This document shows positions 22,090 to 29,214 of a stretch of 64,000 nt of DNA, piece by piece. Location: positions 152,050 to 216,049 of the forward strand of contig NZ_JACYWE010000006.1 in the NCBI RefSeq assembly GCF_014841105.1. Reading direction: 5' to 3'. Position numbers and translations under genes: made by a program. The stretch's first letter is position 1. The number at the start of each line of letters is the position of its first letter. The stretch comes from Lolliginicoccus lacisalsi (lineage in GTDB: Bacteria; Actinomycetota; Actinomycetes; Mycobacteriales; Mycobacteriaceae). The notes beneath the pieces were generated by a model. It searched no databases, had not been told where the DNA came from, and saw nothing but the letters and a program-made list of their open reading frames with translations.

Positions 22090-22179
22090 CCCACGTCCCG
22101 GGGCCGCGGTCTCCGCCAGCGGGTCCCGGGGCCAGCGGGTTTCCGCCAGCGGGTCGAGCGGTCTCGAACGAATCCGCGA

Positions 22180-22223
22180 ACGCGATAGAAGCGGCGTGAA
22201 TGACGGGTCCGCTTCTATCGCGT
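22180..22223. repeat. Intergenic inverted repeat, ACGCGATAGAA family, copy 2
   Basis: ACGCGATAGAAGCGG (22180-22194) and its exact complement (22209-22223) surround a 14-base loop. The core is the same as in the element at 14345-14418. It sits between convergent genes and is directly followed by a GC-rich tandem repeat. Confidence 0.85.
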
Positions 22224-22247
22224 ATGCCAGTTTCCGGTGCTTTTGCC

Positions 22248-22373
22248 GCCACCCGGCCGCCACCGAGCACCCCGCCACCCGGCCGCCACCGAGCGCCCCG
22301 CCACCCGGCCGCCACCGAGCACCCCGCCACCTGGCCGCCACCCGGCCGCCGCCCGGCCGCCACCGAGCACCCC
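22248..22373. repeat. GC-rich tandem repeat, 26-base unit
   Basis: Three near-perfect 26-base units (22248-22273, 22274-22299, 22300-22325) beginning GCCACCCGGCCGCCACCGAG are followed by a fourth unit with an internal expansion to 22373. The repeat ends 6 bases before the stop of the EAL-DICT gene. Non-coding, probably unstable by slippage. Confidence 0.9.
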
Positions 22374-22379
22374 GCCGCG

Positions 22380-23564
22380 TCAGCGGTGCGGGCCGTCGAA
22401 CCGGTCGAGGATGGCGCGGGCGCAGCGCACGGCGGTCGCGCGATCCTGGGTGAGCGCGTATTCGAACTCGCGGTCCTCGTCGCGTCCCCCGCGGTGCAGG
22501 TCGCGGGCGGTGAGCACGCTGCAGAAGTGAGGCGCGAGCACCACGACGTTCCATTCCTCGACGAGTGGCTCGCCGGGCTCGAGGGGCGCGTGGTGCACGC
22601 CTTCTTCCACGGTGGGGCCCATTCCTACGCCGTACACGCCGGCGAAGGCGACGCGGCCCGCTATCGATTCCCAGCGCCGACGGGTGCGGGCGGTGAAGTT
22701 GCGGACGTGCTGGAAGGTGCCGAGCAGGATCGTGTCTCGGCCGGCGGTGGCCGCGAGGTTCTCCAGGGTGGTACTGAGCTCGACGAGCAGTGTCTTGCGG
22801 CTCCAGTGGGTGTGGTGGTCCTCGGCCGCGATAGCAAAGGGGAGCCTGCCTTCCCGGGCGGGCGCTGTGCCAATCAGCAGCGGCGTGACGGCAGTCGTGT
22901 CGAGCTGGGCGGGGGAGGCGGCCGGTGGATGCATCTTGCCCATGCCGTGGCTGGCGCCGAGGCCGCGGGCTCGCTCGTGATGGATCGTGGAGTCGATGCC
23001 GTCGGCGATGACGATGGTGGTGCTGTGCTCGGCTTGTGCCGCGACGGCTTGGGCCACGTGGGCGGTCCATGCATCGGGCGGGGTGGCGATGAGCGCGGCG
23101 GTGAGGATGATGATCTCGGGCTCGATGAGGGGGCGCAGCGCGAGGGTCTTGTCGCGGGCGCCGACCTCGTCGCCGGCGATGGCTTTCCCGGATGCGCGGG
23201 CCGCGGCGATCAGGCGGAGGGCGCGCGCGGGGTCGGAGGCGAGGGCGTGGTCGGTGATGACAACGATCTCGCGGCGGTCGCCACGTTGTTCGGTGGTGGG
23301 CCGGAGCTGCTCGAGCGATCCGACGTCGACGGTCACGAGTGCGGGCACCGCGCTGGCGGGGTGCCCGTCGAGCGCGTGGGAGCGCATCTGGTCGAGGGTG
23401 GAAGTGTCGCTCATGGCCCGGGCGACTGCTCGCAATGCGGCGGATGCGGAGAGTGGGCCGTCGCCCTCGCCTCGTAGTTGCACGTCCACTGCTGCGAGGT
23501 GGCCGGTGCCGAGGTGGTGGATCGGCGCGAAGGTCGGCCGGATCGGGAGTCCCGCGAATTCCAT
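22380..23564 (-). CDS. Degenerate EAL domain fused to a DICT domain
   Basis: A 394-residue cytoplasmic protein. Residues about 5-230 follow the EAL phosphodiesterase fold (FAPIHHLGTGHLAAVDVQLRG, ITDHALASDPARALRLI, AGDEVGARDKTLAL). The E-A-L signature itself reads VDVQL, and several metal ligands are not in place, so c-di-GMP hydrolysis is unlikely and a binding or sensing role more so. Residues about 235-390 match the DICT sensor domain (LLGTFQHVRNFTARTR, GVYGVGM, EEWNVVVLAPHFCSVLTARD, ILDRF). ATG 23564 is preceded by GAAGG. The open frame upstream to 23693 crosses the CsoR-like promoter of the divergent gene. Confidence 0.75.
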   Translation of the reverse strand: MEFAGLPIRPTFAPIHHLGTGHLAAVDVQLRGEGDGPLSASAALRAVARAMSDTSTLDQMRSHALDGHPASAVPALVTVDVGSLEQLRPTTEQRGDRREIVVITDHALASDPARALRLIAAARASGKAIAGDEVGARDKTLALRPLIEPEIIILTAALIATPPDAWTAHVAQAVAAQAEHSTTIVIADGIDSTIHHERARGLGASHGMGKMHPPAASPAQLDTTAVTPLLIGTAPAREGRLPFAIAAEDHHTHWSRKTLLVELSTTLENLAATAGRDTILLGTFQHVRNFTARTRRRWESIAGRVAFAGVYGVGMGPTVEEGVHHAPLEPGEPLVEEWNVVVLAPHFCSVLTARDLHRGGRDEDREFEYALTQDRATAVRCARAILDRFDGPHR

Positions 23565-23627
23565 AGCCTTCAGGCTTGCACTTGATGTGTCGCGGGTCGC
23601 ATCCAGGTCCGTGATCGAGCTCGAATC

Positions 23628-23657
23628 TAGACACGTTAATACCCCATGGGGTATATT
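23628..23657 (+). promoter_or_regulatory. Promoter with a CsoR-like operator
   Basis: ATACCCCATGGGGTAT (23639-23654) is a perfect 16-base palindrome of the A-T tract/C4-G4 type bound by CsoR/RcnR-family repressors. TAGACA (23628-23633) and TATATT (23652-23657) with 18 bases between them make a fair promoter pointing at the small Cys-rich gene, so the operator overlaps the spacer and -10. No CsoR gene is in the window. Confidence 0.65.
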
Positions 23658-23691
23658 TTGGGTTAGTCCGCACCACCCATGAGGAGTCATC

Positions 23692-23862
23692 ATGTGCTAT
23701 CCCGTCAACTGCCGCCAGTGCGGCAAGACCACCTGGTCCGGCTGTGGCATGCATGTCGATCAGGTCATGCGCGGAGTCCCCAAGAACGAGCGCTGCGAGG
23801 GCCACGAGCCCGCCCCCGGGGTTCAGGGCGGCTCATTCCTGACCCGTATGTTCGGCCGCTAG
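23692..23862 (+). CDS. 56-residue Cys-rich protein (CYPVNCRQCGKTTWSGCG type)
   Basis: A small cytoplasmic protein, easily missed by length cut-offs. It begins MCYPVNCRQCGKTTWSGCG, followed by MHVDQVMRGVPKNERCEGH. Five Cys plus His (a CxxC unit, GCGMH and RCEGH) suggest zinc or copper binding. I recall similar short CGKTTWxGCGxH proteins in many actinobacteria and fungi, with no established function. AGGAG lies 6 bases before ATG 23692. The CsoR-like operator in its promoter suggests induction by copper, sulfide/persulfide or aldehyde. Confidence 0.85.
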   Translation: MCYPVNCRQCGKTTWSGCGMHVDQVMRGVPKNERCEGHEPAPGVQGGSFLTRMFGR

Positions 23863-23910
23863 ACCGCGCGGGCCAACCCGCTAGGCGCCCTGCCCTCGCG
23901 CCCTGGTCCT

Positions 23911-23961
23911 CCACCAGTGGAAACTCCTCCCGCCTCAGTGGGGAAAAGTCTCCACTGGTGG
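23911..23961. repeat. Palindromic intergenic element, GTGGAAAC family, copy A
   Basis: CCACCAGTGGAAACTCCTCC (from 23911) is matched by GGAAAAGTCTCCACTGGTGG (to 23961) with a short loop. It is the most diverged of four copies. It lies between convergent genes and is followed by degenerate GTGGCCGC-GGCCA repeats up to about 24005. Confidence 0.8.
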
Positions 23962-24053
23962 CCGCTGGCCAAGTGGCCGCCGGCCAGAAGTCCGCGCAGC
24001 CGGCCCCGGCGGCGGAAGCAACGAGCCACCCGGGTCCCGCGGGCGAACCCTGC

Positions 24054-25142
24054 CTAGCGCGGCCCCGCGCCGTCGAGCAGGAATCCCGCCCGATCCGTCC
24101 GGACGCCGTTGACCTGGATCGACACCGCGTGCTCGCCGTCGTAGTAGCGGCGCGTGCTGATCGGCGTGAACCGGTGGCGCCGCGCTATGTCCCAGGACGC
24201 GCCGGGCTCGAGGTCGCGGACCCCCAGCTTGAAGACCTTCTCCCGCTCGGCTCCCCGCGCGCTCGCGAAGTGGATGACGTAGTCCGCCGCGACGCGGGCA
24301 CGCGCGGAACCTTCCAGCGTGACGCGGCAGTCGAACGCGAGCTCCTCGCCCATCGTGACCACCGGCGTGCGCACTCGTGGTCCCGCGACGTCGATCGCCG
24401 CGCGGGCATCCACACCGATGCAGGCGAGGGCCTCCACGTCTGATCGCTTGATCAATGTGCGCAACGCATGCCGCGCCACCGAGGCCGTGCTGCCGTCCGG
24501 CTCCGCGAGCCACCCTTGCGCGATCCGGACGGCCAGCTCCGGATGGTCCCGGCTGATGTCATTCACGCAGTTCGCCACCGACCGGCGCACATACTCCGAC
24601 TCGTCCCGGTACAGCGCATCGAGAATCGGCACGATCGGGCCGGGATCGGCGACAAGCCTCCGTGCCTGCGGGGCCCAGGGCAGCCTGGGCCGCACCCCCT
24701 CGCTCGCTAGCCGCCGCACATGCTCATCCGGATGGACGGTCCACTCCCTCACGACGGCCAGGCAACGCTCGAGATGCTCGTCGAGGAACCAGCGCAGCGC
24801 GGTCTCCGCCGTCAGCCGCGGCGTCAGCGCGGCCAGCAGCGCCAGCGCATCCTCGACGTGCTCCTGTCCCCGGATGGCGACGGCCTCGGTAACGGGAAAG
24901 GTCATCCAGCCGGTGAACCGGGGATCGCGCAGAGCGTTGCGGACCAGGCCCGCCAGGCCGGGGAAATCCCCCGGGACATCCTCGAGCACGGCGCCTCGGA
25001 TGGCATTCACCCGCTCCCGGAAGCCCAGGCCATCGAGGCCATCAGCGACGCGGCGCAGCCCCGGCAGGGCGGCACCCCCGCCGAGAATGGTGGAAAGGTC
25101 GACAACAGCATCGCGGCCAAGGAGCTCATCGGCGAAGGGCAT
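24054..25142 (-). CDS. AlkC-like DNA alkylation repair HEAT-repeat protein
   Basis: A 362-residue protein probably acting as a DNA glycosylase for alkylated bases. Residues about 20-240 form HEAT-like helical repeats typical of the AlkC/AlkD family (FRERVNAIRGAVLEDVPGDF, SEYVRRSVANCVNDISRDHP). Residues about 255-360 look like the C-terminal Ig-like domain known in AlkC (GEELAFDCRVTLEGSA, YVIHFASARG, YYDGEHAVSIQVNG). I choose ATG 25142 over TTG 25172. Specificity (3-methylcytosine and 3-methyladenine in AlkC) is from family knowledge. Confidence 0.75.
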   Translation of the reverse strand: MPFADELLGRDAVVDLSTILGGGAALPGLRRVADGLDGLGFRERVNAIRGAVLEDVPGDFPGLAGLVRNALRDPRFTGWMTFPVTEAVAIRGQEHVEDALALLAALTPRLTAETALRWFLDEHLERCLAVVREWTVHPDEHVRRLASEGVRPRLPWAPQARRLVADPGPIVPILDALYRDESEYVRRSVANCVNDISRDHPELAVRIAQGWLAEPDGSTASVARHALRTLIKRSDVEALACIGVDARAAIDVAGPRVRTPVVTMGEELAFDCRVTLEGSARARVAADYVIHFASARGAEREKVFKLGVRDLEPGASWDIARRHRFTPISTRRYYDGEHAVSIQVNGVRTDRAGFLLDGAGPR

Positions 25143-29077: not shown

Positions 29078-29214
29078 GATTACCGAGGCTAGTGCCTTCG
29101 TGCTCCTCGCGCCGCTGCCTCGGGCGCCGCTGCCTCGGTCCAGTCGGCTCGCCGGTGGCGGCCGTTTCGCGGGGCCAGGTCTGCGGGCCTCGTTCCGCGG
29201 GGTTCCGCGGGGCC

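Follow-up and report, generated by a model that had tools for sequence, protein, structure and literature searches.

The 56-residue cysteine-rich protein encoded in the 64-kb stretch of DNA analysed here (the window) is very probably, as judged from sequence and gene context, a member of the genome's CstR-type regulon, which senses persulfide and sulfane sulfur. In silico support for this assignment comes from the operator of the gene, from the one-base distinction between this operator and copper sites, and from association with the regulon. In relatives, this one-base difference separates the predicted sulfane-sulfur operators (TAC-X8-GTA, hereafter X8) from the predicted copper operators (TAC-X9-GTA, X9).

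The small gene and its promoter

The gene, its control elements and its divergent neighbour are as follows.

22380–23564, − strand: divergent DICT and EAL-like gene (Pfam DICT over the cut-off, EAL below it; scanned on the longer ORF 22380–23693)
23628–23633, + strand: −35 hexamer TAGACA (promoter scan)
23639–23654, no strand assigned: CstR-type operator ATACCCCATGGGGTAT (TAC-X8-GTA), a perfect palindrome
23652–23657, + strand: −10 hexamer TATATT (promoter scan), with three bases common to the operator
23682–23686, + strand: ribosome-binding site AGGAG, read from the sequence, 5 nt 5' of the ATG (23692)
23692–23862, + strand: 56-residue Cys-rich protein (ORF, homologs, codon comparison)

The predicted operator is a 16-bp inverted repeat made of two perfect 8-nt arms with no gap between them, it matches the published ATACCn6GGTAT form, and it is the sole match to its sequence in the 64-kb window when up to three mismatches are allowed (shuffle mean 0.08). 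It lies within TAGACA-18-TATATT, the sole promoter-like site in the interval 23500–24060 (10 of 12 consensus matches, an 18-nt spacer, shuffle mean 0.0), and the palindrome occupies 13 of the 18 spacer bases and three bases of the −10 hexamer, bearing out the overlap with spacer and −10 described in the initial annotation. A scan for intrinsic terminators also flags the palindrome as terminator-like, a reading that is disfavoured because the palindrome sits inside the promoter and recurs before homologs.

The tiny five-cysteine protein that had been proposed behind this promoter proves to be a real gene of 56 codons, with Cys at positions 2, 7, 10, 18 and 35. Of the 61 genomes searched, 35 have a homolog, the own genome being one of them. 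Codon comparison with two same-genus homologs out of three gave nine synonymous codons against one changed, and 11 against three, so that the reading frame is under protein-level selection and a chance ORF is ruled out by conservation. Homologs also occur in 36 of 296 genomes drawn across the phylum, in 77 plasmid records, in viral contigs (six relatives) and in one record of a phage collection. The protein itself has no Pfam or NCBIfam match at E ≤ 1, and 81 members searched at E ≤ 0.1 yielded weak matches only, no family being matched by more than six members and the lowest E values being 0.0023 (Pfam) and 0.0075 (NCBIfam); a PHROGs search returned E 0.24 only, PDB sequence searches returned nothing significant, and among the titles and abstract beginnings listed for open-access papers on the peptide motif, the regulon or a small protein in it, none described the protein. 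The under-annotation suspected earlier is plausible, 36 of the 40 plasmid matches listed having no feature under the match in a gene table that is incomplete by its own description.

The DICT/EAL-like gene lies beside the small ORF in two of three same-genus loci, and with its likely start about 75 bp from the operator, divergent co-regulation is possible. The intergenic stretches 22090–22420 and 23863–24055 contain repeats (72–82% identity) that recur in the genome, with copies at 29213 and 56300 of the window and at about 4108 of L014 and about 5025 of L015, and a 26-bp tandem array lies at 22246–22376.

Regulators and related operators of the genome

Two CsoR-family (PF02583) proteins are encoded in the genome. 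The proposal of a CsoR-family operator class ahead of the Cys-rich gene is thereby supported, and the finding that had been named as refuting it, a genome lacking any CsoR-family protein, does not apply. One copy (C15) keeps the copper-sensor Cys-His-Cys set (DDHMSHC, including the His of the Cu(I) site), and its gene is located after a copper-type P-ATPase. The other (C4) has Cys, Ser and Cys at those positions (GRDC ... ATSLREC), both cysteines being kept and the copper-ligand His replaced by Ser, and is thus the PF02583 protein with both Cys and no copper-ligand His that a CstR-type regulon calls for. In the PDB it is matched best by 7mq3 and 7mq1, entries named csoR that we take to be a CstR. 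The CstR-type regulators of this genome and of a Curtobacterium plasmid have in common an ELEKLF-TLA-like C-terminal tail (L014:4278–4320, − strand), noted beside the FLxRLFGR-like end of the small protein, and this raises the possibility of docking on one common partner.

Near-matches to the operator pattern are not enriched in the genome: TACCCCNNGGGGTA occurs at nine places when one mismatch is allowed and the reversed pattern at six, with another count giving seven against five; the case rests on where the sites lie. The nine sites precede a TauE gene (one site), an MBL-like/rhodanese protein (two), cstR, in the region it has in common with an MMPL gene (three), an MBL-rhodanese gene (one), a rhodanese gene (one) and the small ORF (one); apart from the small ORF, then, sulfane-sulfur genes (rhodanese, dioxygenase-like, TauE) or the repressor's own gene follow all eight other sites. 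The rhodanese-associated operator is 28 nt from the likely start of the rhodanese gene, and that before the MBL-rhodanese gene is a palindrome with a mismatch, with a divergent MFS transporter gene about 100 nt away on its other side. Rhodanese domains are all that Pfam detects at E 0.001 in the first MBL-like protein, yet most of this protein can be aligned, at 35% identity, with a plasmid-encoded one that carries the annotation MBL-fold metallo-hydrolase; such MBL-like/rhodanese proteins are presumably persulfide dioxygenases. Two TACCC-N5-GGGTA sites occur in the genome (reversed control 0). The first lies by the pair formed by the copper-type ATPase and DUF305 genes, the second upstream of another P-ATPase of the heavy-metal type. 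The TAC-X9-GTA spacing by which a copper CsoR site would be recognised is thus found at the genome's two sites at copper-type ATPases, and the site of the small gene is X8.

An MMPL-family transporter (L014:4773–6956, also L189) shares with cstR the intergenic region that carries three operators. MMPL matches also occur at the X8 loci L173, L189 and L192, and MMPL may belong to the sulfane-sulfur regulon.

Known regulons offer close parallels. Staphylococcus aureus CstR governs a sulfane-sulfur regulon of the same kind as that of Streptomyces ScCsoR. In S. coelicolor, ScCsoR is described as controlling a persulfide dioxygenase, a rhodanese and a sulfite transporter, and the present system resembles it in having a CsoR-family repressor with two cysteines and an ATACC-n6-GGTAT operator (PMC7533328, available text). 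It differs in its extent, since the S. coelicolor circuit is named in that available text (PMC7533328) as one of four genes, with no small Cys-rich protein among them, whereas here the sites are spread over several contigs and include a solitary small gene.

A formaldehyde response, in which this repressor would act in the manner of FrmR, is suggested by the membership of FrmR in the same protein family (PMC5016687, available text) but is exceedingly improbable: the FrmR entries are the two weakest of the ten PDB matches of the C4 regulator, the genome has no third family member, and sulfur genes are where the remaining near-perfect operators are found.

Operator spacing and gene neighbourhoods in relatives

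From the literature searches made here we know of no statement of an X8/X9 rule across actinomycetes. Published binding data for single members of the family agree with it. The copper sensor CsoR of S. lividans, which belongs to the same repressor family and recognises near-identical half-sites, binds TAC-X9-GTA (an N5 spacer) at copper genes, unlike the X8 sites found here at sulfur genes (PMC3902906, available text), and the ATACCn6GGTAT site bound by ScCsoR, which senses sulfane sulfur in S. coelicolor, corresponds to X8 (PMC7533328, available text). For a CstR-like protein of Thermus, a spacing between the site repeats that is one base longer or shorter is reported to change affinity about 10- or 15-fold (PMC10318464, available text).

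In the 61 genomes searched, X9 sites number 75 (reversed control 0) and X8 sites 85 (reversed control four). From these, thirty X9 loci (one from the own genome) were compared with 29 X8 loci plus one own-genome X8 locus, over about 1.5 kb on each side. Sulfur genes or CstR are present at 20/30 X8 loci (22/30 counting the small protein itself) and at 0/30 X9 loci, and a copper ATPase or CsoR is present at 21/30 X9 loci, with copper genes at 0/30 X8 loci (Fisher p = 1.4e-8 for sulfur, 20 vs 0, and 3.6e-9 for copper). Nine of the 30 X9 loci have no copper match and eight of the 30 X8 loci have none of the genes tested; by reading, these eight comprise one peroxiredoxin, one DUF2892-like and one MMPL locus, and five that are unexplained. 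The X8 operators before the peroxiredoxin-like and DUF2892-like genes (L180:1501–1514 and L186:1501–1514, ORFs read) point to possible further regulon members. Presence of the small protein is associated with a strict X8 site (28/35 vs 8/26 genomes, p = 1.8e-4), a comparison that is partly circular since the gene's own operator counts, and such a site is missing in seven of the 35 genomes with the protein; there is no association with X9 (26/35 vs 16/26 genomes, p = 0.40).

For the comparison of neighbourhoods 80 named loci were used; they are the best 80 of 590 relatives, collected with a search pattern that fixed W15, C18 and H21; the loci are not phylogenetically independent, several coming from Cryobacterium, Agromyces and Arthrobacter. 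Among these best 80 of 590, TACCC-N4-GGGTA lies within 200 nt upstream of the homolog in 41, the N5 form in none and the reversed control in 0/80. Within 3 kb, 43 of these loci have a CstR-type regulator, 48 a rhodanese domain and three a copper ATPase. Full-length dioxygenase-like/rhodanese matches of at least 120 bits lie within 3 kb at 17 of the best 80 of 590; a dioxygenase-like count of 40/80 in the same best 80 of 590 includes rhodanese domains alone. A sulfur gene or CstR lies within 3 kb at 57 of the best 80 of 590 and is absent at 23. At 31 of the 39 loci of this set (best 80 of 590) that lack a proximal strict operator, the homolog comes immediately after a same-strand sulfur gene or CstR, and a strict operator or a sulfur gene/CstR within 3 kb is present at 75 of the best 80 of 590. 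Visual inspection of the remaining five showed a palindrome that is degenerate or shorter by one base in four, and in the fifth a match that starts 72 nt from the contig end.

Six plasmid neighbourhoods chosen from 40 listed matches repeat this association, with a rhodanese in all six, an annotated metal-sensitive regulator in five, TauE, MBL and thioredoxin genes in three each and DsrE in one. A strict or near-strict operator lies within 150 nt upstream of the homolog in five of the six, and the sixth, from Curtobacterium, has a second, tail-less copy of the small protein with two operators. This paralogue (L046:6345–6476, − strand) adjoins trxA and an MBL protein, the two operators lying upstream of it.

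These data bear directly on a copper reading of the gene, as a copper metallothionein or copper chaperone under a copper-sensing CsoR. MymT in the RicR regulon of mycobacteria is the precedent for a copper metallothionein under a CsoR-family repressor, and it shares with the present gene, as compared by description, a very small Cys-rich product under such a repressor; small size, five cysteines, a CsoR-family operator and a copper-type CsoR in the genome all fit. MymT belongs to a copper regulon, however. The operator of the small gene is X8 and not the X9 seen at copper-type ATPases in its own genome and in relatives. The copper transport genes that a copper regulon would place near homologs are found within 3 kb as a copper ATPase at three loci only (best 80 of 590). 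The copper-ligand His is missing in 46/46 CsoR-family neighbours of homologs (best 80 of 590) and present in 5/5 at X9 loci. Finally, CxxC occurs once in the query and CxC is absent, and its conserved Trp15, Lys12, Gly17 and Gly19 suggest a folded domain. A copper role is thus very unlikely, the metallothionein reading being set aside on operator spacing, regulator residues and neighbours.

Of the three candidate signals put forward at the outset, Cu(I), persulfide and formaldehyde, it is persulfide/sulfane sulfur that is favoured. As a prediction from spacing, regulator residues, other operators and neighbourhoods it is strongly supported; copper is disfavoured by the same lines, and formaldehyde is unsupported.

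Protein features and a proposed role

The residues C7, C10, W15, C18, H21 and C35 are present in 80/80 homologs and C2 in 79/80 (best 80 of 590), of which C2, C7, C10 and C35 were left free by the search pattern that fixed W15, C18 and H21. In a separate 36-row alignment, collected with a reading pattern that fixed C2, C7, C10 and C18, it is H21 and C35 that were free and nonetheless invariant; all 30 loci from the 61-genome homolog search matched that reading pattern, and the alignment omits L017, a row from the same genus that hardly differs from the query. C35 is followed in these 36 rows by GH in 22, by a second Cys forming C-x-C in 13 and by a shifted His in one, an exchange of His and Cys that makes this a metal-ligand-like position. 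A variable linker leads to an FLxRLF-like tail, which a loose pattern finds in 69/80 homologs and misses in 11/80 (best 80 of 590); the query tail reads FLTRMFGR. A His/Cys near position 37–38 of the protein is conserved as well. An AlphaFold model built on 81 sequences is of moderate quality, with a mean pLDDT of 74 and a pTM of 0.42, pLDDT being about 82 over residues 1–40 and low in the tail, and contains two short strands and a short helix. Fold searches with this model gave a best Foldseek E of 2.8 and no VIA-align match at Z ≥ 2.

The metallochaperone, buffer or thiol-sensor roles put forward at the outset stay conjectural. Taken as a pattern, the Cys/His conservation suggests a zinc-thiolate mini-protein. 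Small zinc-binding domains of the C2HC type resemble it in their CxxC ... CxxH spacing and in the modelled strands and helix, but no significant sequence or fold match to them was found. It could then be a zinc store, or a zinc-thiolate buffer that releases zinc or protects thiols under polysulfide attack and is not itself a sulfur carrier. This is an unlikely reading, for which the resemblance of the His/Cys exchange after C35 to a metal-ligand position and weak, scattered matches of members to zinc-finger and zinc models would speak; the weak matches extend to Fe-S models too, and the rhodanese gene association fits a sulfur-handling partner equally well. Decidedly unlikely is a regulatory adaptor whose metal-thiolate head senses sulfane sulfur and whose C-terminal tail docks on an enzyme, RNA polymerase or the membrane. 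The frequent FLxRLF-like tail beyond the variable linker is consistent with it, and its absence, by the loose pattern, from the 11 homologs mentioned above (best 80 of 590), as well as from the second Curtobacterium plasmid copy, argues against it.

For the small gene as a member of the CstR-type regulon, the following course of events is proposed. In the resting state, the C4 CstR-type repressor would bind the TAC-X8-GTA palindrome and block the spacer and −10. As sulfane sulfur rises, the repressor cysteines would be modified and the repressor would leave, and the small protein would then be made along with the rhodanese, the metallo-beta-lactamase/rhodanese proteins and the TauE sulfite exporter. 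It would most likely form a small folded metal-thiolate domain, probably with zinc, using ligands from C7-x2-C10, C18-x2-H21 and C35-x2-H38 (or C35-x-C37 in relatives). Among the cysteines, C2, which removal of the initiator Met would expose, stands out as the candidate reactive thiol. At just under an even chance, the role of the protein would be that of a sulfane-sulfur carrier, which takes up or passes on sulfane sulfur, or of an adaptor that serves the regulon's enzymes.

On this footing the small protein is likely a new part of the actinomycete sulfur-stress response. A bolder reading, tentatively offered and somewhat doubtful, is that zinc-thiolate mini-proteins dedicated to sulfane sulfur form an uncharacterised family, widespread in actinomycetes and present on plasmid islands for sulfur detoxification, of which this protein would be the first to be recognised. 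Once induced it would accept or relay persulfide, as metallothionein does its work for metals, and the X8/X9 base would insulate its regulon from the copper regulon. Bacterial persulfide stress responses have been described mainly by their enzymes (dioxygenase, rhodanese, exporter), and a conserved small thiol protein that lacks a family model and is found repeatedly under one operator or in the same operons may be a missing component. The one-base rule in turn would be of practical use for assigning CsoR-family sites across actinomycete genomes, and would explain in testable form how the near-identical operators of paralogues avoid cross-talk.
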